DNA of 64,000 bases. Origin: Streptomyces sp. RKAG293. Lineage in GTDB: Bacteria; Actinomycetota; Actinomycetes; Streptomycetales; Streptomycetaceae. The stretch's first letter is position 1. Each line of letters begins with the position of its first letter. Where the stretch lies: NCBI RefSeq assembly GCF_023701745.1, contig NZ_JAJOZB010000001.1, forward strand, positions 4,842,501 to 4,906,500. The letters run 5' to 3'. The position numbers and the translations under genes were made by a program. A model generated the notes under the pieces. The model was given only the letters and a program-made list of their open reading frames with translations, did not search any database and was not told the DNA's origin. This document shows, piece by piece, positions 42,702 to 57,030 of the stretch.

Positions 42702-42708
42702 TGTGTGG

Positions 42709-42779
42709 AGCGAGTGACGGGAATCGAACCCGCGCTCTGAGCTTGGGAAGCTCATGTTCTACCATTAAACTACACTCGC
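42709..42779 (-). tRNA. tRNA-Gly (anticodon CCC)
   Basis: The minus strand folds into a cloverleaf. The acceptor stem is GCGAGTG/CACTCGC, the D arm is in GTTTAATGGTAGAAC, the anticodon stem is TGAGC/GCTCA with loop TTCCCAA (anticodon CCC), and the T arm is CGGGT-TCGATTC-CCGTC. CCA is not encoded. The 3' part is duplicated in degenerate form at 40646-40738. Confidence 0.93.
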
Positions 42780-43244: not shown

Positions 43245-43820
43245 GTGCTTCTCTCAGACAAGGACATCAGGGCCGAGATCGACAGCGGACGGGTGCGGGT
43301 CGACCCCTTCGACGAGTCGATGGTGCAGCCGTCGAGTATCGATGTGCGGCTGGACCGGCTCTTCCGCGTGTTCGAGAACCACCGGTACCCGCATATCGAC
43401 CCGGCGGTGGAGCAGAGCGATCTGACCCGGCTGGTCGAGCCGGAGGGCGACGAGCCGTTCATCCTTCATCCGGGTGAGTTCGTGCTCGCGTCGACCTATG
43501 AGGTCATCTCGCTCCCCGACGACCTCGCGTCGCGCCTGGAGGGGAAGAGCTCGCTGGGCCGGCTGGGGCTGGTCACGCACTCGACGGCCGGCTTCATCGA
43601 CCCCGGGTTCTCCGGGCACGTGACGCTGGAGCTGTCGAATCTGGCGACGCTGCCCATCAAGCTGTGGCCGGGGATGAAGATCGGTCAGCTGTGCCTCTTC
43701 CGGCTGACCTCGCCGGCCGAGCACCCGTACGGCTCGGAGCGGTACGGATCGCGCTACCAGGGACAGCGCGGGCCGACGGCCTCGCGGTCGTTCATGAACT
43801 TCCACCGGACGCAGGTCTGA
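43245..43820 (+). CDS. dcd: dCTP deaminase
   Basis: The 191-aa protein has the full Dcd sequence. It begins [17 protein letters not shown] and has [11 protein letters not shown] and the catalytic region [22 protein letters not shown] with its conserved Glu-Arg context. It ends with [15 protein letters not shown]. It makes dUTP from dCTP for thymidylate synthesis. The trimer active site is complete. The phosphoribosyltransferase gene starts one base after its stop. Confidence 0.95.
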
Positions 43821-43821
43821 C

Positions 43822-44031
43822 ATGGCGGCCGTGCGGGAGAACCTGACGTACGAGGGCTTCGGGCGTGCCGTGCGCGAGCTGGCGCAGACGATCGCGGACG
43901 ACGGGTACGAGCCCGACGTCGTGCTGTCGATCGCGCGCGGCGGGGTCTTCGTGGCGGGCGGTCTGGCCTACGCGCTGGACTGCAAGAACATCCACCTGGT
44001 GAACGTCGAGTATATGTCGCTGGCTGCATAG
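43822..44031 (+). pseudogene. Phosphoribosyltransferase, 5' part (split by the AICE)
   Basis: ATG 43822 begins a phosphoribosyltransferase N-terminus (NLTYEGFGRAVRELAQTIAD, EPDVVLSIARGGVFVAGGLA). After NVE the frame leaves the family and stops at 44031 in element DNA (YMSLAA). The missing PRPP loop and C-terminus lie at 56713-57030. Joined at the shared AACGTCGAGT, the two give a continuous protein of about 170 aa (LVNVE-FYTGVG). The truncated product lacks the PRPP-binding motif and should be inactive. Confidence 0.9.
44002..44011 (+). repeat. attL core (AACGTCGAGT)
   Basis: This 10-bp sequence is the last stretch shared by the chromosomal phosphoribosyltransferase code and the right end of the element. 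Crossover within it restores the reading frame exactly. Confidence 0.75.
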
Positions 44032-44132
44032 CAGCGGGCCGCTGAGCATGGCAAATGCCCTGCTCAGCGTACGTCTTACTCGATCTGGATCATCCTGTTC
44101 GTTGCCGTCGTTTGCGGCTGATCACCGACCCT

Positions 44133-44150
44133 GTGCTGAGGCCGTGCTGA
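44133..44150 (+). repeat. GTGCTGA direct repeats near the left end
   Basis: GTGCTGA occurs at 44133-44139 and 44144-44150, an 11-bp period. The same motif and period occur at the right end (56643, 56654). They are good candidates for integrase arm-type sites. Confidence 0.55.
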
Positions 44151-44235
44151 CTCCTGCTGCCCGGCCGGAGCAGGCTGACGGGGAAACCTTGCCCACGCGC
44201 GATGACCCCCACCATGTGGCTAGGGGAACAGTTAA

Positions 44236-44268
44236 GCCCCGTCTCTCGGGGCGGACGAGAGACGGGGC
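44236..44268 (-). terminator. Hairpin after the XRE/DUF397 pair
   Basis: GCCCCGTCTCTCG and CGAGAGACGGGGC are exact 13-bp inverted repeats. It lies 26 bp after the DUF397 stop on the minus strand and ends that operon near the element's left end. Confidence 0.75.
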
Positions 44269-44293
44269 CCAAAGGTTCGCGGCGCGGCGTGAG

Positions 44294-44503
44294 TCAGACG
44301 GCCGGAAACTCGCCGCCCTGGACGCCCGCGACGAACGAGCGCCACGCATCGGGGGAGAAGCTGAGCGCCGGACCGTGGGGGTCTTTGGAGTCACGGACGG
44401 GAACGACACCCGGGATGCCGTCGGCAACCTCAATGCACTCGCCGCCGTTGTTCTGGCTGTAGGTGGAGCTCCGCCAGCTCTCGCTGGGGATGGTGTGGTT
44501 CAT
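44294..44503 (-). CDS. DUF397 family protein
   Basis: The 69-aa protein has the family pattern ESWRSSTYSQNNGGECIEVA, then VVPVRDSKDPHGPALSFSPD and AWRSFVAGVQGGEF. DUF397 proteins are made with XRE/DUF5753 regulators in actinobacteria, and some pairs behave like toxin-antitoxin or signalling pairs. Its ATG overlaps the regulator's TGA (44500-44503). Confidence 0.88.
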   Translation of the reverse strand: MNHTIPSESWRSSTYSQNNGGECIEVADGIPGVVPVRDSKDPHGPALSFSPDAWRSFVAGVQGGEFPAV

Positions 44504-45327
44504 GAGTAGCAGTCCTTCGAAATGGAGTCGATGATGTCTGGCGACTCGTCCGGCGGTGCGGCCATGGCCTTGAGCAGATCATAGGCATCGTTTGCCGCCG
44601 TCACGTCGTCAGTTTCTGCCAGTAGATAGCCCTTGGGGAAGCCATCTACGTGCACGACGTCACCGCCTTCTTTGAACGACAGCACGCCGAACGGGCTTGC
44701 CCAACCGTGGTGCTTGCCCGTGTCCCGGATGATCTGCACTCGGTGCGTCGGATCGTCGGCAAGGACACGCAGGTGAGCGAGTTGGGCACGCATGACGCCG
44801 CCGTCGGCAACGACGTTCCGTAGTACCGCTTCGTTGAGGACCAACCACAGTCGCGTTGGTACGTCACGTTCGAGGATGCGTTGGCGCTCGATGCGCGAGG
44901 TCACCAGGTCGTCAAGGTTGGTCGGCCGACCGGTTCGCAGTACCGCTCGTGCGTAGTCCTCGGTCTGCACAAGCCCTGGAAGTAGTTGGGGATGGAACAT
45001 GCGAACAGATGTGGCCTTCTCCTCAAGTTCCACGTAGCGGCGGAACCAGGGCGGGAAGCCGAACCTCATCACGAGCGGCCACAGTCGAACGAAGCGACCG
45101 TTTGAGTTCGGGAACACCCGGTCGCACGCCTGTGCGAACTCCAGCGAGGGGACGCGTTCGCCGTTCTCGATCTTGGCCACCAGGGAGTAACCGCAGTTCG
45201 CCTCTTTGCCTAACGCCGCACGCTTCATGTCCAGCCGCTCACGCTCTAGCTGTACCTCGCTGCCGAACAGCTTCAAGGGGGACGCGGCAGGGTCGGCCGG
45301 GTCGGTTTGCTCGTTCTCGACACTCAT
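44500..45327 (-). CDS. XRE-family regulator with DUF5753 domain
   Basis: From ATG 45327, after GAGGGGAG, this encodes 275 aa. The N-terminal HTH contains LERERLDMKRAALGKEANCG and YSLVAKIENGERVPS. The DUF5753 domain follows (FHPQLLPGLVQTEDYARAVL, RQRILERDVPTRLWLVLNEA, VQIIRDTG). It is coupled to the DUF397 gene. The 20-bp palindrome in its promoter is probably its operator. Confidence 0.88.
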   Translation of the reverse strand: MSVENEQTDPADPAASPLKLFGSEVQLERERLDMKRAALGKEANCGYSLVAKIENGERVPSLEFAQACDRVFPNSNGRFVRLWPLVMRFGFPPWFRRYVELEEKATSVRMFHPQLLPGLVQTEDYARAVLRTGRPTNLDDLVTSRIERQRILERDVPTRLWLVLNEAVLRNVVADGGVMRAQLAHLRVLADDPTHRVQIIRDTGKHHGWASPFGVLSFKEGGDVVHVDGFPKGYLLAETDDVTAANDAYDLLKAMAAPPDESPDIIDSISKDCYS

Positions 45328-45346
45328 TGGAACTCCCCTCGCTCTT

Positions 45347-45366
45347 TGGACAGTTCGAACTGTCCA
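45347..45366. promoter_or_regulatory. 20-bp perfect palindrome, probable XRE operator
   Basis: TGGACAGTTCGAACTGTCCA is fully self-complementary. It lies 20 bp upstream of the XRE start and about 85 bp upstream of the divergent gene at 45451, so one site could control both directions. Confidence 0.65.
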
Positions 45367-45450
45367 GGGTTCCACCCTGTTGAGCGTACGCACCGGAGAG
45401 CAAGGGTGGGAGTACACACAGCAACGTGGGCAGCGAGGCGAGGTAGTTCG

Positions 45451-45774
45451 ATGGACGCGAGATTGCAGGCTGCCGAAGATGATCGGCGGCGGATCGCGGA
45501 GGGGGACGTTGTCTCCGCTCAGCGTGGGGCGGATTCGTCGGCATCCACCTTGCGGGAGGTTCTGGACTCCTTAGGTCTGAGCCACGATGACGTGCGGGGT
45601 ATCAGGGGTCGGAGCAACCTCCGAGGAGACGCGTATGTCTGTCTTGGGACTGTCTCCAAAGCAGGGGCTGACCGCCTGCTTGATGTGCTCTTGGCCTACC
45701 GGTTCGATCAGCTCCGTCGTAGGGCGGTCCCGGTGGTCCGTCAGCCCGACAGTCCTGCGGGCGGTGCGGAGTGA
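45451..45774 (+). CDS. Hypothetical AICE protein, 107 aa
   Basis: ATG 45451 gives MDARLQAAEDDRRRIAEGDV. A second part, TLREVLDSLGLSHDDVRGIR then GDAYVCLGTVSKAGADRLLD, follows. It is soluble and charged, with no known domain. It is divergent from the XRE gene and overlaps the next small gene by GTGA. Confidence 0.65.
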   Translation: MDARLQAAEDDRRRIAEGDVVSAQRGADSSASTLREVLDSLGLSHDDVRGIRGRSNLRGDAYVCLGTVSKAGADRLLDVLLAYRFDQLRRRAVPVVRQPDSPAGGAE

Positions 45775-45875
45775 GGCGCTTAGCGGCCTGGACCGGCCCG
45801 CTCTTCATCGTTCTCGTCGCGGGATCCTGCGGTCTGGTCATCGGTCTTGTGCTCGCTAGTCCCCGGCATCTGTAG
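45771..45875 (+). CDS. Small membrane peptide (34 aa)
   Basis: GTG 45771 overlaps the previous stop. The product MRRLAAWTGPLFIVLVAGSC ends GLVIGLVLASPRHL: one hydrophobic helix with a basic N-terminus. Translational coupling supports it as real. Function unknown. Confidence 0.5.
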   Translation: MRRLAAWTGPLFIVLVAGSCGLVIGLVLASPRHL

Positions 45876-45887
45876 AGGAGAACGGTC

Positions 45888-46046
45888 GTGTTCGGATCAC
45901 CGCAACCCACGTTCGGAGACTTCTCCCGACAGCGAGAGTGCCGGCCAAAGGAGAAGCCTCGCCAACCACCGGTTGCAGGTGGGCCGGGGCAGGAGGGGGA
46001 GGAGGCCCGCGGTGAAGGTGCTTCCTCGGAACCTGGCTCCGCGTGA
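45888..46046 (+). CDS. Small hypothetical protein (52 aa)
   Basis: GTG 45888 follows AGAGGAG. The product begins MFGSPQPTFGDFSRQRECRP and is rich in Gly, Glu and Pro, probably disordered. It follows the membrane peptide by 12 bp in the same small-gene operon. Confidence 0.45.
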   Translation: MFGSPQPTFGDFSRQRECRPKEKPRQPPVAGGPGQEGEEARGEGASSEPGSA

Positions 46047-46095
46047 GCAGTTCGAACACATCGGCGGACGCTCACCGCCTGTCGTGGGGAGGTGA
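46012..46095 (+). CDS. Possible small peptide (27 aa)
   Basis: GTG 46012 comes after AGGAGGGGGAGGAGG, an unusually strong ribosome site. It encodes MKVLPRNLAPREQFEHIGGR and seven more residues, overlapping the previous gene in another frame. The ribosome site is the main evidence, because the G-rich run could also be part of the upstream coding sequence. Confidence 0.35.
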   Translation: MKVLPRNLAPREQFEHIGGRSPPVVGR

Positions 46096-46177
46096 TTTCG
46101 CTGGTTTGGCTTCCGGCGGACCGACAGGAGTAGAACACTGTCGGTAACCCGACTGTCACAGGAAGAGAGTTCGAGTC

Positions 46178-46423
46178 ATGGCACGTCTGCCGTACGACCC
46201 CCTCTGGGACGAGGACAGCCGCTACATCCCGTGGCTCGACGGACCCAATGACCGCTGGCATGTCTGTGACCGCGAAGGGCCGTACACCATGGTCACCGAG
46301 GGGAAGTCTGAGGAACCCCTCGTGTTCGCGAACAAGCAGGCTGCACAGCAGTGGCTTGATGCGAAGTATCGGGAGTGGGGTCACCATCCCCGAATCAAGA
46401 AGGTCTCCCCAAGGGGGCAGTAG
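46178..46423 (+). CDS. Hypothetical AICE protein, 81 aa
   Basis: ATG 46178 gives MARLPYDPLWDEDSRYIPWL, then DGPNDRWHVCDREGPYTMV and a C-terminal FANKQAAQQWLDAKYREWG. It is rich in aromatic residues and compact. No family assigned. It is one codon away from the following zinc-ribbon gene, so the two are probably co-translated. Confidence 0.6.
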   Translation: MARLPYDPLWDEDSRYIPWLDGPNDRWHVCDREGPYTMVTEGKSEEPLVFANKQAAQQWLDAKYREWGHHPRIKKVSPRGQ

Positions 46424-46582
46424 ATGATCTGCAACAACTGTTCAGCGACCATGGTGAAGGAGGGGGAGTGGATGCGCTGCTACGGATGCGGGAACTCCGT
46501 GAACGTTGGCTCGCAGTACGTCCCTGGTTCCGTGGGGCTGCCGGTCGTTCCGCTCATGCTCGGTAGCCGACAACTGCTCTGA
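46424..46582 (+). CDS. Small zinc-ribbon protein (52 aa)
   Basis: ATG 46424 directly follows the upstream stop. The product begins MICNNCSATMVKEGEWMRCY and then has GCG: two CxxC pairs (CNNC and CYGC), the layout of a zinc ribbon, followed by a hydrophobic tail. A strong terminator follows at 46601. Confidence 0.6.
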   Translation: MICNNCSATMVKEGEWMRCYGCGNSVNVGSQYVPGSVGLPVVPLMLGSRQLL

Positions 46583-46600
46583 CGCACCTTCGCCAAGACG

Positions 46601-46640
46601 GCCCCGGCCATGCGCACTCCCCGTGGTGCATGGTCGGGGC
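46601..46640 (+). terminator. Hairpin terminator
   Basis: GCCCCGGCCATGCGCAC and GTGCATGGTCGGGGC pair with small imperfections and are followed by TTT. It ends the small-gene operon of the element. Confidence 0.65.
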
Positions 46641-47275
46641 TTTGCGCTGCCGGGGCTGGTCCCTGGCCGGTTGGGCTTGAGCCACGGAAAGCCAGCCACG
46701 ATGGCGGGTCTGCCGGCCGACTTGGCGCGGGAGGCTCGCCGCACTCCCACCGTGCTCAGCCACTCCATGCGCCTGTGCGTGACGGCGCGTTGTGGTGTCG
46801 GCCGTGGCCGTGGTCTCCGGTGCTGGGTGGGGTTGGTCCTGGTGGTGGTTGTGCTGGGCAGGCTTCCCGCGGCTTCATGGGTAGCGTTGTCGTGGGCTGT
46901 GCTGGTCGTATGGGTGTCCGGCTGTGTCTGCTGCGAGTCGTGGGTGTGGCCTGGTTGGGCTGCTGTGGGGCTGTCGGAGTTGCTTCCTGCTCCTGGTGTC
47001 CGCTTCTTCTGGCCTTGCGCGCTGAGCGGCCCGGGGCCGCCGGAGCGGGGCGGAGACAGGAGCGGTGGCGGCCACGGGCCGCCAGCGCGCGCGGCCCGCG
47101 TCAGCGGGCCGCCTTGATCCAGTAAAGAAACTCTTAACAGCTCTGCTGCTGACCGGCTGTGGCTGGTTCTGTCGGAGGCGGCTGGTGCGTCCAGTTGGCT
47201 GATCACTGCGATCGCGCAGCGCCGCAGCGCCCCGCTGCACACAGATGAGCGTGCAACGGGGCGCTAGCGATGAAG
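46641..47275. other. Gene-free stretch with strong G/T skew
   Basis: Long frames exist on both strands but lack a ribosome site and codon bias, and their products are Trp/Cys/Gly-rich. From about 46790 to 47000 the plus strand is strikingly G- and T-rich. It could be a structured RNA or single-strand initiation site, but I see no defining motif. Confidence 0.35.
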
Positions 47276-48142
47276 CTATCCGTTCCAGCCCGCGTAGGCG
47301 CCGATGCCGCACGAAACCCAGCCCACATACGGGATGAGACGTACGATCATTCGCTTACCGAGTACTACCATCACCTTCGCGAGACCCATGCGCGCCAGGT
47401 CCTTGAGACCGAAACACCCCATGATCATGTTGATGGTCTGGCTGAACCAGTTGGGATCAGCGACCACCGGGTAGGCAAAACGCCCGCTGGCGTGGTCCAC
47501 CACCTGAGTGAGCGTCGTGCCGTCCGTCTCGAAACGAGTCGGAACAGCAACCCCGTTGGCATCCTTCGCCCAGGGGGTCGCAGCCGCTACGACAATGGCG
47601 CCTTCGCCATCGAGGATCGTAGCGCTACCGTCCTCAGCCAGTTCCACCCTGCCGCCCGCCGGCACCGCCACCTTGTAGGCGAAACGCGTAGGAGCGTCTG
47701 AGCTGGCGATGGTGGTGAGCATCTGGATTCCCGTGGTGGTCGGGATGACAGCGCTAGCGCTGCCATTGGTTCCCGGGTAAATCACCGTGCCGTCGCTCAG
47801 CCGCGTAGCATCCTTGGCTTCGTTGGCGTTCGGCAGGTCGATAGTGACCGGAGGCGCCCCCTCGGACTTGAGGAAAACGCCGTCTTCGGGGTTCTTGGGA
47901 ACCTCCATGGTCACGCCGCCCTGCTTGACGACGGCGGCCGAGTCAGCGTCCGTGGTCGACTTGACTGGTTCGGCAACGAGACTGCCATTTCTGGCATCGG
48001 TGCTGTTTAGAGCGGTAGCCACCTCCGAGGAGGAGACGGCGTCACCTGCGTCGGCGGTAGCCATGCTTGGTGCCGCCAGCATGACTGCCGTGGTCACTAT
48101 CGCGGTCGACACCAACATGGCACCGCTACGGATGAAGCGCAA
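47276..48142 (-). CDS. Secreted hypothetical protein, AICE cargo
   Basis: The chosen TTG start at 48142 follows GGGGGA by four bases. ATG 48118 is an alternative. The 288-aa product has a signal peptide (LVSTAIVTTAVMLAAPSMA, cleavage near ATA), an acidic middle with KDATRLSDGTVIYPGTNGSA and PTRFAYKVAVPAGGRVELAE, then YPVVADPNWF. The hydrophobic end is IPYVGWVSCGIGAYAGWNG. Similar exported proteins of unknown function are common in Streptomyces. The lower GC upstream and the isolated position suggest cargo. Confidence 0.7.
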   Translation of the reverse strand: MRFIRSGAMLVSTAIVTTAVMLAAPSMATADAGDAVSSSEVATALNSTDARNGSLVAEPVKSTTDADSAAVVKQGGVTMEVPKNPEDGVFLKSEGAPPVTIDLPNANEAKDATRLSDGTVIYPGTNGSASAVIPTTTGIQMLTTIASSDAPTRFAYKVAVPAGGRVELAEDGSATILDGEGAIVVAAATPWAKDANGVAVPTRFETDGTTLTQVVDHASGRFAYPVVADPNWFSQTINMIMGCFGLKDLARMGLAKVMVVLGKRMIVRLIPYVGWVSCGIGAYAGWNG

Positions 48143-48579
48143 TTTTCCCCCAGGGTCTAGACGCGAAAATGACAACTCCTGCCATGAATTCGTCCAGTTT
48201 TTGGTTCTGGCGAAATGGCACTCTGGTGAGGCCCGGATTTCGCATCCGGTCTCGCCTTGATGGAAGTATGCACCGTAGTTGTGTTCAACAACGTTGATGA
48301 TTGAAAGATGCACTAAAGTGATAGAAAATGATAGATCAAATTCCGGCGGCTTTTTTTAGATACTTTAGAGCGAGACCCCGCGTGAGCTGGAGGGATGTCT
48401 CCGAGCTGGCGGATTAAAAATTTCGGTCCATCTGCACTCGAACTACCTTTCGCCTTATGAGATATACGCCTTGACATTTGGCGGCGTGAACTTGTGCAAC
48501 CGGGATTGAATGGCCGAATCGTGATTCTGTACTTGGTTCCGTGGTGATCGGTCCAGTGAGTGCGATGAGTAAGACTGCG

Positions 48580-48612
48580 GCTCAACTCCGCTGCAATTAA
48601 GTGGAGTTGAGC
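48580..48612. repeat. Inverted repeat GCTCAACTCC-N13-GGAGTTGAGC
   Basis: Exact 10-bp arms are separated by 13 bp, without a T-run. It lies upstream of the DnaA-box-like sites and could be a terminator stem or protein site. Confidence 0.5.
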
Positions 48613-48770
48613 ATGTGCGTTCGGATTTTCGGCGGCCCGTGACGTTGAGAATCACTCGCTCGAAGTGCGCAGGGGCTCGGGACGAGTTGCGCGCCGGAGC
48701 TGTTGCTCTTTGGGGGGTTTTATGGCATATCGAGTTGTTCGCACTAGATTCAGACTTGGGTTCTTGAAAC

Positions 48771-48779
48771 TTATCCACA
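48771..48779 (+). promoter_or_regulatory. DnaA-box-like site TTATCCACA
   Basis: TTATCCACA is the classical strong DnaA box and is unusual in such GC-rich DNA. A second box lies 131 bp downstream. Confidence 0.5.
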
Positions 48780-48901
48780 GGCGTTTCCTTGCAAGATCCG
48801 TTCATGAACACGTCCAGAGTTTCCCCTTGGCGCCCGTTTGCCCACGTCACTGGTGTGCCTGGCCTGTGCTGCCTGCGAACCGGTCCCTTCGGCGCGAAAA
48901 G

Positions 48902-48910
48902 TTGTCCACA
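48902..48910 (+). promoter_or_regulatory. DnaA-box-like site TTGTCCACA
   Basis: TTGTCCACA is the preferred Streptomyces form of the DnaA box. It has the same orientation as the site at 48771. Confidence 0.5.
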
Positions 48911-48991
48911 GGGGAGAGGTGTCCGCTTTCCCTGGGTGGATGGCCCTTCGGCCGCGCAGTGCGGCTCTGGAGGAAGGCGGATCCGCATGTA

Positions 48992-49007
48992 TGTGACGGG
49001 CGTCACA
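48992..49007. promoter_or_regulatory. CRP-type palindrome TGTGACGGGCGTCACA
   Basis: It matches TGTGA-N6-TCACA and also the Streptomyces form GTG-N6-GNCAC. A one-mismatch relative, TGTGATGTCCATCACG, lies at 49692-49707 in the same region. Confidence 0.5.
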
Positions 49008-49532
49008 GCTCTTCGGGCGGTGAGGGAGTCACGCAAGCGCCGCTCTCGGCACCTCTATTGCCGACCCCGTGGAAGGCGGTTCGTGGGGCGGTCGATGGAA
49101 GGAAGTGACGTGCTTGTGATGCAGGTCATATCAGGTCGTGTGAGCCGCGCTGTCACATCGGGGCCTTTTTCGCCACTTCCTCAGGGTGAGGAACAAAGAA
49201 GCGGTGCTGAACCAAGGCGCCGGTTTCAGTGCGCGGGTCGGTCGACGAGAGGTGATGGCGTGAGACGACGGGTGTTGGGCGGGAGCGTGGCCGGCCCGTG
49301 TGGCGGGCTCGGATGTGAAGTCCTTGACCGCCTGGCGGGAGGAATCGGCCTTGGCGCGGGCGTGGGCCGTCGGCGGCCTTGCTCTGGTGCCAGGCTGCCA
49401 ACAGGGCGCGGGTTCGGCCGTGTCACTGGTCCGGGTTTGCTAGCGGGTGCGTTGGACCGAGCAAGCGGCGCGAAGGGTGGCCGGAGTGCGGCGTTTCCTG
49501 GGTAATCCACGGCTGCGGAGCGGCACCCGCAA

Positions 49533-49597
49533 CATCACTGAACGGAGATGCCGAACTGTGATGTGGGGAGCGCTTTTCAGTGACGTTTTCAGTGATG
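49533..49597. repeat. TTTTCAGTGA direct repeats with an inverted partner
   Basis: TTTTCAGTGA occurs at 49574 and 49586, a 12-bp period. CATCACTGAA at 49533 is the reverse complement of TTCAGTGATG at 49588-49597. This is a cluster of probable protein-binding sites. Confidence 0.45.
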
Positions 49598-49742
49598 TCG
49601 CCGACGCAGGCTGCTCGTGCGGACAGCGAAGCGCGGCTCTTGCCGTCGTCGTCGAAGGAGCCGCGAAGCGCCTATCCAACGGGGAGGGGAATGTGATGTC
49701 CATCACGCGAACGAACGGCGTGGGAGCGGCTGTTGTGTCCGC

Positions 49743-49778
49743 CTGCGTACGGCTGCGTCCGCCTGCGTCCCACTGCGT
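49743..49778 (+). repeat. CTGCGT iterons, four copies at 10-bp period
   Basis: CTGCGT starts at 49743, 49753, 49763 and 49773, each followed by AC or CC. The exact 10-bp phasing puts all copies on one face of the helix, as in plasmid iterons or activator arrays. Confidence 0.5.
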
Positions 49779-49945
49779 ACGGGGGTCCGGAACGCGCTCA
49801 CGCGAAGTTGATCAAGGTCGTTTGGCGCGACCGGAATTCCGCTCTACAGTCCGTGATCCTGCCGGGGCGACCGGCGGCGGTACGGGGGCTGGCGATGCGT
49901 GAGGGCAGTGACGGAACGGGTTCGGAGCGAAGCGGGGGAATGGTG

Positions 49946-50107
49946 ATGACGGAACAGGATCTGCGGCTGATGCGGGAGATTGCCGAACTCGGGTCCCGGA
50001 TGGTGGCCGACCTGGACGAGGTGCGCGAGCGCCTTACGGGTGTTCAGGTGCGGATTGGTGCTCTAGGTGCTGGACCTTCGACTCAAGTTCGGTCACCTGC
50101 TGCTTGA
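49946..50107 (+). CDS. Small hypothetical protein (53 aa)
   Basis: ATG 49946 follows GGGGGA. The product MTEQDLRLMREIAELGSRMV then ADLDEVRERLTGVQVRIGAL forms a short coiled coil. It converges with, and overlaps by 74 bp, the 3' end of the GntR gene, which also encodes a coiled coil there, so part of the signal could be complementary shadow. Confidence 0.4.
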   Translation: MTEQDLRLMREIAELGSRMVADLDEVRERLTGVQVRIGALGAGPSTQVRSPAA

Positions 50108-50564
50108 GCCCGGTGACCTGAGCGCTCATGGCGCGCATCTGGTCTCGGAGGCCGATCAGGAATTCCGTCATCGCGGATGCCTGATCGCCTCCGGGGGCCG
50201 GGGCCGGCTGATCCGGTTCCGTGGCTTCCTCGTCGCTTTCGCCGGTCGCTTGGGGTTCGCCGGTGCTCTGCGTGTACCAAGCGGGCGGGGTGTAGTCGAA
50301 CGTGAACTCGCCGGTGTAGTCGGGCTTGTAGTTCGACTCTGCGATGTAGGTGCCTCGGCCTTGGACGGAGTAGACCAAGCCCTCGTCCTTCAGGACCCGT
50401 AGGGCCGCGTGCACGGTGGCATTGGCGATGCCGAGTTCGTCCTTCAGCTCGCGTGCTGACGGAAGGCGGTCGCCAGGGCGCAGTGTTCCGGTCCGGATGT
50501 CCTCACGGATCTTGTCTGCGGCCAGTTGGTACGGCGGCCGCGGGCCGTTGGCAGGCAGCGTCAT
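50034..50564 (-). CDS. GntR-family regulator of the AICE (KorSA-like role)
   Basis: From ATG 50564 this encodes 176 aa. A GntR winged helix (YQLAADKIREDIRTGTLRPG, LPSARELKDELGIANATVHA, ALRVLKDEGLVYSVQGRGTY) is followed by a Pro/Glu linker and a C-terminal coiled coil (MSAQVTGLKQQVTELESKVQ). In pSAM2 the GntR protein KorSA represses replication and transfer genes. The equivalent position here, divergent from the transfer operon, supports that role. Repeated CTAGATCG sites lie just upstream. Confidence 0.85.
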   Translation of the reverse strand: MTLPANGPRPPYQLAADKIREDIRTGTLRPGDRLPSARELKDELGIANATVHAALRVLKDEGLVYSVQGRGTYIAESNYKPDYTGEFTFDYTPPAWYTQSTGEPQATGESDEEATEPDQPAPAPGGDQASAMTEFLIGLRDQMRAMSAQVTGLKQQVTELESKVQHLEHQSAPEHP

Positions 50565-50579
50565 ACACCGAGGATAGTC

Positions 50580-50674
50580 CGATCTAGAGCGACCTGAACA
50601 CCTGCGCGTCCAGCGGGCTCCTGTGGTGGGAAACATCTCTAGATCGTTCCGAACGCATGAGATTACCTAGATCG
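50580..50674. promoter_or_regulatory. Three CTAGATC sites, probable GntR operators
   Basis: CGATCTAGAG (50580-50589) is the exact reverse complement of CTCTAGATCG (50637-50646). A third copy, CCTAGATCG, lies at 50666-50674. An inverted pair CCGAACGC/GCGTTCGG (50649 and 50692) overlaps the area. All lie between the divergent GntR gene and the transfer operon. Confidence 0.65.
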
Positions 50675-50755
50675 CACTTGACTCCTCCAGAGCGTTCGGG
50701 CACTGTTGATCTCACGCCGGGCCCGTCGGGGTTCGGCTCAACGAAGGAGCAAGTC

Positions 50756-51103
50756 ATGGCACGTGCATTCGCGAAGGTCGACACCGCCGGATCGATGTTC
50801 ATGGTGGCGGTGACGGCGGTGGACAAGCTGAAGGACACCGCGAAGGACATGCCGCCGGAGCGGGCGTTCGACCGCAATAGCGGTGAGGCGCTGTCGGTGG
50901 TGAACCTGGTGGAGATGTTCGAGGGGCGTGCGCAGATCCTGAAGATCACCGTTCCGGCGTCGCAGATCCCGGACAAGCTCGCCCCGGGTGCGGTGGTGCG
51001 GCCGGTGGGCCTGGTCGCCTCCCCGTGGGGGATGAAGGGCATGGGCGACGCGGTGAACGTCGGTCTGTCCTACCGCGCTGAGGGCCTGGAGCTGGTCAAG
51101 TGA
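50756..51103 (+). CDS. Conserved AICE protein, 115 aa
   Basis: ATG 50756 follows AAGGAG. The product begins MARAFAKVDTAGSMFMVAVT and has KLKDTAKDMPPERAFDRNSG, LKITVPASQIPDKLAPG and VVRPVGLVASPWGMKGMGD: a compact beta-rich protein. Proteins of this kind stand at the head of transfer operons in Streptomyces elements. Its role is unknown. It overlaps the next gene by GTGA. Confidence 0.75.
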   Translation: MARAFAKVDTAGSMFMVAVTAVDKLKDTAKDMPPERAFDRNSGEALSVVNLVEMFEGRAQILKITVPASQIPDKLAPGAVVRPVGLVASPWGMKGMGDAVNVGLSYRAEGLELVK

Positions 51104-51330
51104 CCGCCGCCCCGGAAGACACCCCCGTCCTGTGGGGGCCGCCACGCGCCTACCCGCTGGATCACGTGCCCGGCGATGACCGGTTCACCGAGCAGTTCGT
51201 GAAGTCGATGGGCGCGCTGCTCGTGGCCCATGGCTATCCGCCGCTGGACAACCTGACGGACTGGGGCGATTTCGAATTGGCCCTGGTCGAGTTCCTGTTC
51301 GACACCCACAACGAAAGGAGGCCGGTATGA
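51100..51330 (+). CDS. Small AICE protein, 76 aa
   Basis: GTG 51100 overlaps the upstream stop. The product MTAAPEDTPVLWGPPRAYPL continues FVKSMGALLVAHGYPPLDN and ends before the translocase. No domain is recognised. The double coupling (GTGA and ATGA) shows it is part of the transfer operon. Confidence 0.7.
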   Translation: MTAAPEDTPVLWGPPRAYPLDHVPGDDRFTEQFVKSMGALLVAHGYPPLDNLTDWGDFELALVEFLFDTHNERRPV

Positions 51331-52727
51331 CCCCCGAAACGATCACGCACTATGCGCCGTTGCTCGTGGCGCTGGGCCTGGTGGTGCTTGTGGTGCTGGG
51401 CATCCGGATCGCCGTTCGCTACCTGCGGGCCGATACCGAGATGCGGGCCAGCATCCGCCAGGCAGCCCGCATACGACGTCGCTGGGTGCGTCTGGCGTTG
51501 ATGTTGGGCCTGTCGGTCGTGGACAAGAAGCCCACAATCGTGGCCTCGATGACGGCCAAGGACGGGCAGGTACCCAAGCCCCGGGAGAAGACTCCCAAGA
51601 TCTCGACGGTCCCGGACCGGTTCGGGGTCATCGTGCATGCGAACTGCCTGCCGAACGTGGGCCTGGAGGACTTCAAGAACAAGGCCGCCTACCTGGCGGA
51701 CGACTGGGGATGCACCCGGCTGTCGGTACGGCAGAACGGCCCCGGGAAGGTCATCATGCGGGCGGTGCGCACGGACCCGCTGATCGTGCCCACCACGTTC
51801 GTTCCCTCCGGGCTGCCGCTGGCGGATGTGAGCATGTGGGATCTCGGGGTGGATGAGTACGCCGAGCTGGTCACGCTGCGGGTGTCCAACATCCCCGGCA
51901 TCACGGTGGCCGGCCTGCCCGGGTACGGGAAAACGTCCCTGATCAACGCCATCGTGTGCCGTCTGGCGCCGTCCGGTGCGGTGCAGATCGTTGTCCTGGA
52001 CGGGAAGGTGTCCTCGGCCGATGAGGGCGACTACGCCGACATGGTGAAACGTCTCTTCGCCTTCGCCGGTGACGACCTGGAGGAAGCCAACAAGCTCCTG
52101 CAACGGCTCGTCGCGCTGCGGCGTGAGCGCTCGTCCACCATCCGGCGGGTGCTGGGGGTGGCGAACATGTGGCGCGTTGGCCCGTCGCCGGAATGGCCGC
52201 TGGTCGTCGTGATCATCGATGAAGCGCACACGTACTTCCGTGAGCACAAGGGCAGCGACCCCAAGACCAAGGCGCTTGCGGCGCTGGCTGCGGAGAACGC
52301 CCGGCTGGTGGAAGACCTCGTCAAGAAGGGCCGCTCGATTGGGATGGTGGTCATCCTCGCCACGCAGAAGGCGACCGGTGATGCGATCCCGACGTTCATC
52401 CGGGACGTGTGCCCGGTCGGGCTGTCCTTCGCGCAGAAGACGGCGGAAGCCTCCGTGGCCGCGCTGGGGGAGGACATCCGCAACTGGCCGGACGCCAACC
52501 CGGTGCTGTTGCAGGACCCCGGATACGTCGGGGTCGCCGCGATGGTCACCCAGGGGCAAGAGGGCTTCATCCGGGTCCGGATGCCGGAGGTGGACCCGTA
52601 CTACGCCGCGCAGATCGCCGCCGACACCGCCCACCTGACCGCCGACCCCACGGACCTGCTCCGCAAGGCCCTGACCGCACCCCCGGTGATGTTCAAGAAC
52701 CTCCCCCGCCCTCGTGCGGGCCGCTGA
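51327..52727 (+). CDS. traSA: TraSA-like FtsK/SpoIIIE DNA translocase
   Basis: The 466-aa protein has one or two N-terminal membrane segments (residues about 10-30 and 54-64) and an FtsK-type ATPase. Walker A is GLPGYGKTS (196-204), Walker B is PLVVVIIDEAH and a later motif is VILATQKATGD. Single Tra proteins of this type move double-stranded element DNA between Streptomyces hyphae. It is larger than soluble regulators and lacks the gamma domain of chromosomal FtsK. The symbol is by analogy with pSAM2. Confidence 0.9.
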   Translation: MTPETITHYAPLLVALGLVVLVVLGIRIAVRYLRADTEMRASIRQAARIRRRWVRLALMLGLSVVDKKPTIVASMTAKDGQVPKPREKTPKISTVPDRFGVIVHANCLPNVGLEDFKNKAAYLADDWGCTRLSVRQNGPGKVIMRAVRTDPLIVPTTFVPSGLPLADVSMWDLGVDEYAELVTLRVSNIPGITVAGLPGYGKTSLINAIVCRLAPSGAVQIVVLDGKVSSADEGDYADMVKRLFAFAGDDLEEANKLLQRLVALRRERSSTIRRVLGVANMWRVGPSPEWPLVVVIIDEAHTYFREHKGSDPKTKALAALAAENARLVEDLVKKGRSIGMVVILATQKATGDAIPTFIRDVCPVGLSFAQKTAEASVAALGEDIRNWPDANPVLLQDPGYVGVAAMVTQGQEGFIRVRMPEVDPYYAAQIAADTAHLTADPTDLLRKALTAPPVMFKNLPRPRAGR

Positions 52728-52767
52728 CCCCGCCCCACACCCCAGAGCGAAAGGAGGACACCGCGCG

Positions 52768-53460
52768 ATGACCGCCACTGCGGACCGGAACACTCAACGC
52801 ATCGTCACCGCCGTGATGGCGGTCATCGCGGCCCTGGCCTTCACCTTCTCCTTCGGCAACGTCTGGTCCCTGGCGCTTCGCCTGGGCGTCCCACACCCCG
52901 TCGCACCGCTGATCGCCCCCATGGTGGATCTGTCCGTGGTCGGCCTCCTGGTCGCCTTGCGCCACCTGGCCTTGCACGGCATTGCCCCGGTCGAACTCGC
53001 CCCGGCACAGCGCCTGATGCACGTGTGCGGGCTCCTGACCCTGGCCCTGAACATCGCCGAACCCCTGGTTGCCCGGCACTACGGCCGCGCCGCCCTCGAC
53101 ACCGTCGCACCCCTGCTGCTCCTCGGCTGGGGCAAGGTCGGGCCCCTGCTCCTGGCCCACTTCCACACCACCATCCCGGACCCCTCGACCGCTCCCGCGA
53201 CCACGCCGCAACCGGCTACGGCCTCCGGCTCGGTCCCGGCCGCTACGACTCCGGCCCTGGTGCCCGGCTCGGTCGACCCGGCTCCCGCTTCGGCTGCGGT
53301 CTCCCGGCCGGTCCCCGCTCCGCTGCTGGAGGCTGGGCGCCGGATCGCCGCCGACCATCAGCAACGGCACGGGCACCACATCACCGCCCCGGAACTGGCG
53401 AGCCGCCTCGGCGTCGCACCTCAGTTGGCCGGTGCCGTGCACGCGCACCTCACCGCCTGA
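52768..53460 (+). CDS. Spd-like spread protein (DUF2637-type)
   Basis: ATG 52768 follows AAAGGAGG. The 230-aa product has four membrane helices (IVTAVMAVIAALAFTFSFGN, LIAPMVDLSVVGLLVALRHL and two more), a Pro/Ala-rich linker and a small C-terminal helix-turn-helix-like part (ITAPELASRLGVAPQLAGAV). Such proteins are encoded beside Tra in Streptomyces elements and help spread DNA within the recipient mycelium. Confidence 0.75.
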   Translation: MTATADRNTQRIVTAVMAVIAALAFTFSFGNVWSLALRLGVPHPVAPLIAPMVDLSVVGLLVALRHLALHGIAPVELAPAQRLMHVCGLLTLALNIAEPLVARHYGRAALDTVAPLLLLGWGKVGPLLLAHFHTTIPDPSTAPATTPQPATASGSVPAATTPALVPGSVDPAPASAAVSRPVPAPLLEAGRRIAADHQQRHGHHITAPELASRLGVAPQLAGAVHAHLTA

Positions 53461-53586
53461 GCATCCGGCCGCCGGCCTAACCCACCACCCCGCACAAACC
53501 CCCGTGGCTGCGGCCAGGAACCGCCATGCCCACACGCACGGTTCCTGGCCGGGTCACCCCTACCCACAAGGAAGGACACCACCGCC

Positions 53587-55170
53587 ATGACTACTCCTGC
53601 CCCGGCCCCGGAACAGATCAGCCGGGCCGCACACGAACTGCTCGCCCGGTGGTGCCCACCTGCCCAGCTCGCCACCCTCAGCACCCCGCCCCCGGCCCTG
53701 CCCGAACCGACCCCGGCCCCGCCGGTCATGAGCACCGCCACGCGTGACCTGCTCGCCCTGGCCCAACTTCCCGACTTCGACCGGGTCCAGGAGCAGATTG
53801 ACCGCCTCGGCGGCTGCACCCATCCCGTTCAGCTCACCGGATACTCCGCCACCCTCAACGCGACCACCGGTGAAGCCCTGCACGTGTTCAACACCGAGGA
53901 TCACCCCACGGGCAGGCTCCTGTTGCCGTGCGGCAACCGGCGTGGCTCGCGCTGCCCGGCCTGCTCCCGCGTCTACGCCGCCGACACCTACCAACTGATC
54001 AAAGCCGGGCTCTCCGGCGGCAAGGGCATCCCGGAATCCGTCTCCGGGCACCCGCGCGTGTTCGCCACCTTCACCGCCCCGTCCTTCGGCGCGGTCCACA
54101 ACCGGGCGAAGAACGCCACCGGTACTCGCCTTACCTGCAAGTGCGGCCACCGCCACACCCCCGACGATCCGTCCCTCGGTACTCCGATCAACCCCACCCG
54201 CTACGACTACAGCGGGGCCGTGCTGTGGAACGCGCACGCCCCCGCCCTGTGGCAGCGCTTCACCGTCTACCTGCGCCGCACCGTCGCCGCCGCTCTGAAA
54301 CTGACCGTGCGCGCCCTGAACAAGGTTCTGCGGATCTCCTTCGCCAAGGTCGCCGAGTACCAAAAGCGCGGCCTGGTCCATTACCACGCGATCATCCGCT
54401 TCGACGGACCCGAGGGAAGCGACCAAGAGCCCCCGGAGAAGGCCACGACCCTCGTTCTGATCAAGGCGATCCGGGCCGCTGCGAAGGCCGTGTCCGTGCG
54501 CCTGGACGACAACGACGCGATCGGCTCCCGCGTCTTTCGCTGGGGGCGTCAGATCGACGCACGGTCTCTGAGTAGGTCACCCACCAAGCTCTCCGATCAC
54601 AAGGTGGCGGCCTACGTCGCGAAGTACGCCACCAAGGGCGCCGAATCCGCGGGGACCCTCGACCGCTCCGTCACCTGCCCCAACTGCAAAGGGCGCGGCT
54701 TCCGCACCACCGATGGACACCGCACCGAGTGCCTGCCCTGCGACGGCACCGGGCAAGGCCAACCTCTCGTCCACCTCGTGGTGCAACGCCACGTCCGCCA
54801 AATGATCCGCACCGCATGGGACCTCGGCGGAATCCCCGACCTGGCCCACCTCAAGCTTCGTCACTGGGCTCACATGCTCGGCTTTCGGGGTCACTTCTCC
54901 AGCAAATCCCGCCGCTACTCCACCACCCTCGGCGAACTCCGGAACACCCGCCGGGCCTGGCGCACCGAACGCGCCCACGAACGCATCCGTGCCGGCCTAC
55001 CCGAGGAAGAACAAGAACACACCACCCTCATCACCGAATCGTCCTGGGCCTACCTCGGCAACGGATACAGCCCAGGGGAAGCGCTCCTCGCCGAAACCAC
55101 GCGCCAACAACACGCCCTCGCCACCCAACTCCATTCCGAAGAAACCGTACGTGGAGGTGATTCCAGTTGA
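53587..55170 (+). CDS. repSA: RepSA-like rolling-circle replication initiator
   Basis: The 527-aa protein resembles RepSA of pSAM2. It has Cys motifs (CGNRRGSRCPACSRVYAADT, CKCGHRH), the HUH-type motif LVHYHAIIRF and a downstream zinc-like CPNCKGRGF...CLPCDGTG. The Tyr of the nicking motif is probably in VAAYVAKYATKG. It would nick the element's double-strand origin during the circular phase. It is coupled to xis by TTGA. The symbol is by analogy. Confidence 0.88.
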   Translation: MTTPAPAPEQISRAAHELLARWCPPAQLATLSTPPPALPEPTPAPPVMSTATRDLLALAQLPDFDRVQEQIDRLGGCTHPVQLTGYSATLNATTGEALHVFNTEDHPTGRLLLPCGNRRGSRCPACSRVYAADTYQLIKAGLSGGKGIPESVSGHPRVFATFTAPSFGAVHNRAKNATGTRLTCKCGHRHTPDDPSLGTPINPTRYDYSGAVLWNAHAPALWQRFTVYLRRTVAAALKLTVRALNKVLRISFAKVAEYQKRGLVHYHAIIRFDGPEGSDQEPPEKATTLVLIKAIRAAAKAVSVRLDDNDAIGSRVFRWGRQIDARSLSRSPTKLSDHKVAAYVAKYATKGAESAGTLDRSVTCPNCKGRGFRTTDGHRTECLPCDGTGQGQPLVHLVVQRHVRQMIRTAWDLGGIPDLAHLKLRHWAHMLGFRGHFSSKSRRYSTTLGELRNTRRAWRTERAHERIRAGLPEEEQEHTTLITESSWAYLGNGYSPGEALLAETTRQQHALATQLHSEETVRGGDSS

Positions 55171-55346
55171 GGGGCGGATCGAATCAGTTGTTGACCCCTT
55201 CTCAGACGGCCGATTTTCTTGCGGTCTCTCTCAGCACTCTCTATAGCAATTGGCGTGTATGGGGCCTGAAGGGCTACCGGGTCGGCAAGCATCTTCGATT
55301 TCGTGAGCGGGACTTGGAGAACTGGCTGGAACTCAAGTCCGCGTAG
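55167..55346 (+). CDS. xis: Excisionase (Xis), HTH_17 family
   Basis: TTG 55167 overlaps the repSA stop (TTGA) and follows GGAGGTGA by seven bases. The 59-aa product MRGGSNQLLTPSQTADFLAV, SLSTLYSNWRVWGLKGYRVG, KHLRFRERDLENWLELKSA is a MerR/HTH_17 fold, typical of AICE Xis. It acts with Int to excise the element. The position between repSA and int is canonical. Confidence 0.88.
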   Translation: MRGGSNQLLTPSQTADFLAVSLSTLYSNWRVWGLKGYRVGKHLRFRERDLENWLELKSA

Positions 55347-55393
55347 TTGGAAATCGTCGATCACCGCGATAGATCTAAACGAAGGGTGAGGAA

Positions 55394-56626
55394 ATGGGAT
55401 CGATCATCAAGCGTTGCGGTTGTTCAATCACGGATTGGGACGGCTGCGATCATCCGTGGATGGTCAGGTGGCGTGAGCCTGGGGGCCGTTCGGGCCGTCA
55501 GAAGGAGCACACTTTTGAGAAAGGGGCTGCGGGCAAGAAGCTCGCTGAGAAGTGGGAACGGAAGGTTGAGCGCCAAAAGGACACAGGTTCCTATATCGAC
55601 CCCGAGAGGTCCAAGCGGACGTTCGCGGACGTATGGAACGAGTGGATCAATGCGGGTTTGGATGATGGGGAATTGGCGAAATCCTCACGAATCCAGTACT
55701 GGAGTGTGTACCGCAACCACTTTGAGAAGTCCTTTGGTGGCCGTGCCATCGGCTCTGTGAGTGCGGGCGACATTTCCCGCTGGGAGACCTCACAGAAGGA
55801 GCGTGAATATAAGCCCTATGGGATTGCCGTACGGCGTAATATTCTCGCGTCAGTCTTCAAATACGCATGGGAGGCTGAAATAATCGCCAAGAATCCGTGC
55901 AAGAAGGCTGACCCCCGCAAGCGCAAGACTGTAGACGTCTATCGCGCAATCGATCCGTCGGAAGTGCCGGAGACGTGGGAAGTTGAGGCCATCCACGACA
56001 ACATTCGGCCGTGCTTCCGCTCTGCAATCTGGGGTATGGCAGGCACGGGAATGCGCCCCGGTGAGGCGCTGGGTGTCTCAACGGCCAAGTGGGACCAGGC
56101 TGCGGGTCTGTACGTCGTTAACGCTCAGCTCACTTCGTTCACCGCGAACGATGGTGCCGGTCGTGGCACAGGGATCAAAGATGAGGTCAAGTGGTCGCGT
56201 CACGGCCGGACAGCTCCTGTCGCGGACATCACGGCTGAGGCATGGTCCACTCACGTCCAGACCTTCGGAACGTGGGGCGATGAAGGGTGGCTCTATGAGT
56301 CGGAGATGTACACAGACCGCCATCCCTCTCGTACGACCTTCTCTAGCCGCTGGCGACAGGCTGTCGATCTTGCCGGACTGGAGGACCGAAAGCTGACCCC
56401 CAAGTCTCTGCGGCACTTCTTCGTCTCAACGGCCATCGCTGCCGGGGTGCCTCTACCGGAAGTTGCGGTCTGGGTCGGACACTCCAGTAGCAAGGTCACG
56501 GAGAAGATTTACTTCCACCTGCTCAAGGGCGCGGACAAGCGGGCCAAGGGGGCGATCGCACTTGCGCTGGCGCAGAACCTTTCGGATGCTTTGGAGGGGG
56601 AGCGCCGCGTCCACCGTGCTGAGTGA
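55394..56626 (+). CDS. int: Tyrosine-recombinase integrase
   Basis: The 410-aa integrase has an N-terminal arm-binding part, a SAM-like core-binding domain (TFADVWNEWINAGLDDGELA) and the catalytic domain. The first catalytic Arg is R221 (GTGMRPGEALG). The HxxR box reads K337-S-L-R340 with Lys for His, a tolerated change. H363 (WVGHSSS) and the nucleophile Y373 (KIYFHLL) follow. It ends 87 bp before attR. It targets a protein-coding gene, unlike the tRNA-specific pSAM2 integrase. Confidence 0.92.
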   Translation: MGSIIKRCGCSITDWDGCDHPWMVRWREPGGRSGRQKEHTFEKGAAGKKLAEKWERKVERQKDTGSYIDPERSKRTFADVWNEWINAGLDDGELAKSSRIQYWSVYRNHFEKSFGGRAIGSVSAGDISRWETSQKEREYKPYGIAVRRNILASVFKYAWEAEIIAKNPCKKADPRKRKTVDVYRAIDPSEVPETWEVEAIHDNIRPCFRSAIWGMAGTGMRPGEALGVSTAKWDQAAGLYVVNAQLTSFTANDGAGRGTGIKDEVKWSRHGRTAPVADITAEAWSTHVQTFGTWGDEGWLYESEMYTDRHPSRTTFSSRWRQAVDLAGLEDRKLTPKSLRHFFVSTAIAAGVPLPEVAVWVGHSSSKVTEKIYFHLLKGADKRAKGAIALALAQNLSDALEGERRVHRAE

Positions 56627-56660
56627 CCGCTAGCGAAATGCGGTGCTGAGCTGGTGCTGA
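56616..56660 (+). repeat. GTGCTGA direct repeats near the right end
   Basis: GTGCTGAG lies at 56616, 56643 and 56654. The last two have the same 11-bp period as the left-end pair. The first copy overlaps the end of the integrase gene. Probable Int or Xis binding sites. Confidence 0.55.
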
Positions 56661-56691
56661 GCCGAAGGGCAGTCAACGGGCGTTATGCCTG

Positions 56692-57030
56692 GTGGCTGCC
56701 CCTCTGGTGTTTAACGTCGAGTTCTACACCGGTGTGGGCACCACGCTGGAGATGCCCGTGATGCTCGCCCCGGTGCCCGACGCCATCGACTTCAGCAACA
56801 AGCGCGTGCTGATCGCCGACGACGTCGCCGACACCGGCAAGACGCTGAAGCTGGTGCACGACTTCTGCGTCGGGCATGTCGCCGAGGTCCGCAGTGCGGT
56901 GATCTACGAGAAGACGCAGTCGCTCGTGAAGTGCGAGTACGTGTGGAAGCGCACCGACGACTGGATCAACTTCCCGTGGTCCGTCGACGAGCCCGTGGTG
57001 AAGCGGGCCGGGCAGGTTCGGGACGCCTGA
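56692..57030 (+). pseudogene. Phosphoribosyltransferase, 3' part (split by the AICE)
   Basis: After the attR core the code continues FYTGVGTTLEMPVMLAPVP, the PRPP-binding motif VLIADDVADTGKTL and EYVWKRTDDWINFPWS, typical of a hypoxanthine/xanthine-type phosphoribosyltransferase tail. A GTG at 56692 in element DNA is in frame, so a fragment could be translated, but it lacks the N-terminal half. Precise excision would rebuild the gene. Confidence 0.88.
56713..56722 (+). repeat. attR core (AACGTCGAGT)
   Basis: This copy matches 44002-44011 exactly. It is followed by the 3' part of the phosphoribosyltransferase gene in the correct frame. It lies 87 bp after the integrase stop codon, the usual Int-att arrangement. 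Confidence 0.75.

Follow-up and report, generated by a model that had tools for sequence, protein, structure and literature searches.

A 12.7-kb AICE interrupts a purine-type phosphoribosyltransferase gene downstream of dcd in Streptomyces sp. RKAG293 and may append an ssrA-like tail to the host fragment

Organization of the locus

The window analysed here, that is, the whole 64-kb stretch of DNA taken from a genome of 9.27 Mb (G000:C1:4842501-4906500), contains a phosphoribosyltransferase (PRT) gene divided into two distant parts, the first of which directly follows dcd. Host genes and boundaries are arranged as follows.

43245..43820, + strand: dcd (dCTP deaminase), open reading frame, host gene directly upstream of PRT, present in 34 of 35 genomes of the genus
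43822..44031, + strand: N-terminal PRT fragment, consisting of 60 host residues, NVE (core) and the tail YMSLAA, stop codon TAG at 44029-44031
44002..44011, + strand: attL core AACGTCGAGT, direct repeat; the same core is found in six other species, in some with 1-2 substitutions
56713..56722, + strand: attR core AACGTCGAGT, direct repeat
56713..57030, + strand: orphan C-terminal PRT part, 105 codons and stop, open reading frame from the joined-frame analysis

Exactly two copies of the 10-bp core AACGTCGAGT are present in the 64-kb window, and none of its reverse complement. The two PRT parts occur separately in the genome, and joining 43822-44001 to 56713-57030 gives an open frame of 165 aa that matches Pfam PF00156 over residues 12-151 (91.5 bits) and contains the complete PRPP motif VLIADDVADTGKT, exactly as a preliminary description of this DNA had proposed for the fusion of both halves at the shared core. 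The same description had placed an AICE at 44002-56722 inside a PRT gene beside dcd, which proved correct to the base, and the anatomy given below agrees with it. A chance repeat taken for a boundary was considered as well and is ruled out, since six loci in other species carry relatives of the integrase at the same core, bringing the integrated loci to seven, and only two copies of the core exist in the window.

The description had also made its proposal depend on an intact gene in relatives free of the element, and this is what two genomes of the same genus hold: the PRT orthologues of G007 (98% aa identity) and G019 (96%) are uninterrupted, with a predicted empty site around the core. Ten nucleotide differences separate the joined gene from that of G007, which points to a recent insertion and is too few for measuring decay of the halves. 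Because the halves join in frame and empty sites are present in G007 and G019, precise excision by Int and Xis is predicted to rebuild an intact PRT gene, and the earlier claim that integration breaks the gene while excision restores it is upheld as a prediction of this kind.

The integrated element

Genes of the element are listed below.

44294..44503, - strand: DUF397 protein (PF04149)
44500..45417, - strand: XRE-type HTH and DUF5753 regulator (PF13560, PF19054)
47276..48313, - strand: cargo gene, 345 aa, no Pfam or NCBIfam match
50034..50636, - strand: GntR regulator with the position and type of KorSA (PF00392)
50756..51103, + strand: SCO3933-family regulatory protein (NF051478, 71 bits, just below the cut-off of 80)
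51327..52727, + strand: Tra, FtsK/SpoIIIE-like DNA translocase (PF01580, above cut-off)
52768..53460, + strand: SpdB-like membrane protein, DUF2637 (PF10935, above cut-off)
53587..55170, + strand: RepSA replication initiator (PF20199, 495 bits)
55170..55346, + strand: xis, excisionase, with a TTG start overlapping the end of rep (TIGR01764, above cut-off)
55394..56626, + strand: int, tyrosine integrase (PF00589), relatives of which sit in the same PRT gene

Judged by its gene content, the 12.7-kb element between the cores is a complete pSAM2-type AICE with tyrosine integrase, excisionase, RepSA and FtsK-like Tra. The site-specific integrase adjoins one att site and direct repeats flank the whole, a RepSA-type initiator is encoded, and a single FtsK/TraB-like translocase scores 25.9 bits against a PF01580 cut-off of 24; xis, int, rep and tra are all intact reading frames. 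Integration into a tRNA 3′ end, a usual trait of AICEs and not a required one, is not seen here, as attB lies inside the PRT gene and the sole tRNA of the window is located at 42706-42779. No compensating PRT is encoded inside the element, the other PF00156 matches of the genome all lying outside it. The 345-aa cargo protein has, from its sequence, the look of an exported one.

Identity and distribution of the interrupted gene

The solved proteins closest in sequence to the PRT are archaeal purine phosphoribosyltransferases, GpT-2 (4z1o) and 1vdm, from Sulfolobus and Pyrococcus, respectively, and the NCBIfam XPRT and HGPRT models match it only below their cut-offs. Among 395 genomes sampled across the family, 289 have the gene, several of the counts given here being based on one genome per species, and any insertion in it is limited to about 2% of the family's gene-bearing genomes. 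Within the genus it is intact in 8 of 35 genomes versus 34 of 35 for dcd, and when 30 dcd loci were inspected, 22 proved to lack a PRT behind dcd; in a near relative with an identical dcd protein (G020, L130) the PRT after dcd has decayed to about 28 codons and lost its start codon. On these grounds the PRT appears to be a dispensable salvage-type gene. An essential or housekeeping role is ruled out by its absence from most of the genus, and the preliminary description, which called the gene "housekeeping-like", has to be revised in this point. In one further genome (G274:C1:1213516-1213991, L066) the PRT is matched in two frames, which signifies a frameshift near codon 120 due to either decay or sequencing error.

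Recurrent insertion at the same core

Searching genomes, one for each species, with three aligned integrases as query returned six loci, all with the PRT C-terminus at attR, in Streptantibioticus rubrisoli, Streptomyces sp. DSM 15324, S. hilarionis, S. caeruleatus, S. graminilatus and S. muensis; attL ends were located in all six. Since two of the three query integrases, those of S. rubrisoli and S. caeruleatus, had originally been found via the split PRT, only the other four loci are independent confirmations. RepSA, xis and int mark five of the six as AICEs (for the S. rubrisoli element, of about 5 kb, only these three genes were checked). The sixth, in S. graminilatus (L075/L125), is a prophage of 57 kb that shares xis-int, lacks RepSA and encodes ribonucleotide reductase and DNA polymerase. 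The same xis-int also stands in a metagenomic phage contig with terminase and portal genes (L124), next to a site with the appearance of an unintegrated attP. An integrase family dedicated to one attB inside the dispensable purine-PRT gene after dcd appears to be the best explanation of these sequences.

Scanning IMG/VR with the integrase of this element alone revealed no relative of it, the plasmids searched held no close relative of the integrase, the known phages searched held no close relative of the PRT, and further Streptomyces samples gave no new element at this core. It may be added that the xis-int-attP module is common to AICEs and to unrelated phages (the S. graminilatus prophage and L124). 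A more distant integrase relative (G408:C2 at about 4008600, L115/L087) has an insertion-sequence-like transposase gene where attR is expected and is uninformative. Integrases of about 40% identity (G613, G365, G480 and G308:C30; L088, L089, L090 and L109) adjoin the 3′ end of an apparent tldD, so called from the translated flank only, and were left out of the tail comparison below.

The PRT gene accepts other elements as well. In G375 and G239, prophages of 36-37 kb occupy a position about 30 bp downstream of the core, and just inside attL both carry a full-length PRT copy (L062:1325-2258 with L063, G375:C276; L064 with L065, G239:C17); in that of G375, portal, minor capsid and tail genes were identified, along with a serine integrase at attR. 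Two IMG/VR records (L128, L129) display the same combination of N-terminal fragment and full PRT copy. Lysogens of this second type thus probably keep a functional PRT gene, and by their sequences these phages, unlike the AICEs, seem to make good the damage they cause. At two contig ends (L067, L068, in G276:C2 and G276:C12) the PRT is also broken near this second site, probably by another inserted element lost in assembly.

An element-encoded tail at attL

Location of the core in the N-terminal PRT part was given correctly in the preliminary description. The reading frame of this part does not end there and runs past the core through six codons contributed by the element up to the stop, an extension that the preliminary description does not mention.

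44011..44031, + strand: tail codons TAT ATG TCG CTG GCT GCA TAG (YMSLAA and stop), ssrA-like degron candidate

In-frame tails of the six RepSA-bearing AICEs read YMSLAA (this element), YMCLAA, YFGLAA, YFGLVA, FSLAA and FGLAC, so that four end in LAA, one in LVA and one in LAC, and neither of the two phages has such an ending: the S. graminilatus prophage adds V and a stop, and the attP of L124 encodes neither a stop nor LAA within its first 16 codons. Tails at the second site (...TTVPNQ, ...CGRI and ...ARCA) do not end in LAA either. The tmRNA tag of the host studied here, ANTKRDASAFSLAA, terminates in AFSLAA, those of other carriers in FALAA, YALAA or FSLAA, and the S. caeruleatus tail FSLAA is identical to the last five residues of the tag of this host. 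With a C-terminal L-A-A-COOH and an aromatic residue just upstream, YMSLAA has the composition of an ssrA-like signal.

Composition shuffles of the arms produced an L[AV]A tail with a probability of 0.0005; read in either alternative frame, the real arms contain no LAA. LAA codons differ in a purely synonymous manner (CTG GCT GCA here, CTT GCC GCA in S. rubrisoli, CTG GCT GCT in S. hilarionis and TTG GCG GCC in S. caeruleatus); between S. rubrisoli and S. caeruleatus four of nine bases are changed and the peptide is the same (simulated P 0.001). If the arms are aligned by codons, LAA is also kept across an in-frame length difference of one codon. In the integrase tree the six AICE tails fall into about three lineages, with the S. 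graminilatus phage integrase closely related, and given this number the tail statistics are suggestive and not conclusive. The S. graminilatus phage integrated at the same core with its tail altered, which speaks against any need for the tail bases in recombination.

Two hairpins are found near the ends of the element.

44040..44069, + strand: terminator-like hairpin just 3′ of the tail stop codon, no T-run (fold -25.1 kcal/mol, z -3.6)
56667..56702, + strand: hairpin between int and attR (fold -27.5 kcal/mol, z -4.2)

Of the consensus pairs of the right one, four of nine carry double changes among relatives, a sign of covariation; the left one is strong in this element and in the S. caeruleatus group and weak in S. 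rubrisoli. A consensus terminator scan of both ends called none in this element, its hairpins being devoid of T-runs.

Possible meaning of the tail

We propose, with a probability of roughly 0.6, that integration both knocks out the PRT and tags the remaining fragment for ClpXP, so that the outcome would be a reversible knock-out with clean-up of its debris. At the level of sequence the PRT is inactivated by the insertion. Translation of the 60-residue stub together with dcd very likely continues, because only one base lies between the dcd stop and the PRT start (TGA-C-ATG, TGACATG). To it the attP arm adds 5-6 residues in frame, with LAA before the stop as in the host tmRNA tag, and the tagged stub would then be delivered to ClpXP and destroyed, as its sequence and the published specificity of ClpXP suggest; precise excision by Int and Xis would restore the gene. 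Both hairpins may insulate transcription of the element from the dcd operon, even though they are without T-runs. In Streptomyces, ClpXP turnover of sigma-AntA depends on a C-terminal Ala-Ala (PMC7142297) and GFP-ssrA is degraded by ClpXP1P2 (PMC9765437). For E. coli ClpXP, YALAA is a sufficient tag on GFP, and LAA alone is too short on the folded protein (PMC7652416); the tails described here have an aromatic residue in addition to LAA and are attached to a stub that is probably unfolded.

The reading that best withstands this evidence otherwise, to which about one chance in three may be given, sees a plain gene-splitting AICE for which the PRT is a tolerated landing site and the LAA tail a functionless product of shared attP-arm descent, a relic that could be kept for DNA reasons, being needed by Int and Xis as DNA. 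Dispensability of the gene, tail-less phage-borne versions of the same module, the small number of independent lineages, the one AICE ending in LAC and the known occurrence of AICEs in protein-coding genes (PMC9513070) all speak in this direction; on the other side stand the LAA preserved through synonymous changes and, if codon-aligned, through the one-codon length difference, the agreement of the tails with the tmRNA tag ends of their own hosts, and the S. graminilatus element, which integrated without such a tail. A regulated switch in the manner of active lysogeny, with salvage turned off when the element integrates and on when it leaves, had been suggested in the preliminary description and would suit the exact in-frame restoration predicted, the intact xis and int and an enzyme related to archaeal purine PRTs, but it is highly improbable for a gene that most of the genus lacks, that has decayed in one near relative and that carries any insertion in so few of the family's gene-bearing genomes, with no sign of regulated excision and no signal linking excision to nucleotide state known or seen.

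Extension of the degron reading to the whole group is more tentative, and we would put it slightly below even odds: gene-splitting conjugative elements would carry in their attP arm a mimic of the tmRNA tag that fuses a ClpXP degron to the host fragment, phages with the same integrase would do without it, and unrelated phages at this gene would bring a replacement copy, making two separate solutions. No case in which integration gives a host protein fragment a degron was found in the open-access literature searched. The LAA-ending tail at attL is what is new here; AICEs in protein-coding genes and an att-linked ssrA-like tag on a phage repressor are already known.

Comparison with known systems

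Most AICEs use tRNAs as integration sites (PMC3218068), and discussion of how elements landing in genes limit the harm to their hosts has so far centred on tRNA targets, in which the gene is reconstituted. One small host gene now shows two other apparent solutions, a degron in the attachment site and a replacement gene as cargo, the first of which, if true, would mean that att-linked proteolysis reaches host proteins as well as phage repressors. With pSAM2-type AICEs the element shares tyrosine integrase, excisionase, RepSA, FtsK-like Tra, SpdB-like protein, GntR regulator and direct-repeat att sites; unlike them it breaks a protein gene within its first 40%, whereas they rebuild a tRNA 3′ end. 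Protein-coding genes account for 14 of 51 AICE insertion sites in one Streptomyces population, rlmN being an example, and AICE03 of Streptomyces RLB3-6, located in rlmN with a short repeat of 11 nt, resembles our element in this respect; its target gene is different, and no tail on its truncated product appears to have been reported (PMC9513070). In the integration-dependent immunity of mycobacteriophage BPs, recombination at attP likewise changes the presence of an ssrA-like C-terminal degradation tag, but there the phage's own repressor loses the tag on integration, while here a host fragment gains a candidate one (PMC4557955). As in active lysogeny and phage-regulatory switches such as phiSa3 in hlb of Staphylococcus, the disrupted gene should be restorable by precise excision, yet in distinction from them neither regulated excision nor a needed target gene is indicated here (PMC6597384). 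Finally, the serine-integrase prophages share with this AICE the same host PRT gene, entered 30 bp further on, and differ in bringing next to attL a complete replacement for the gene they interrupt.
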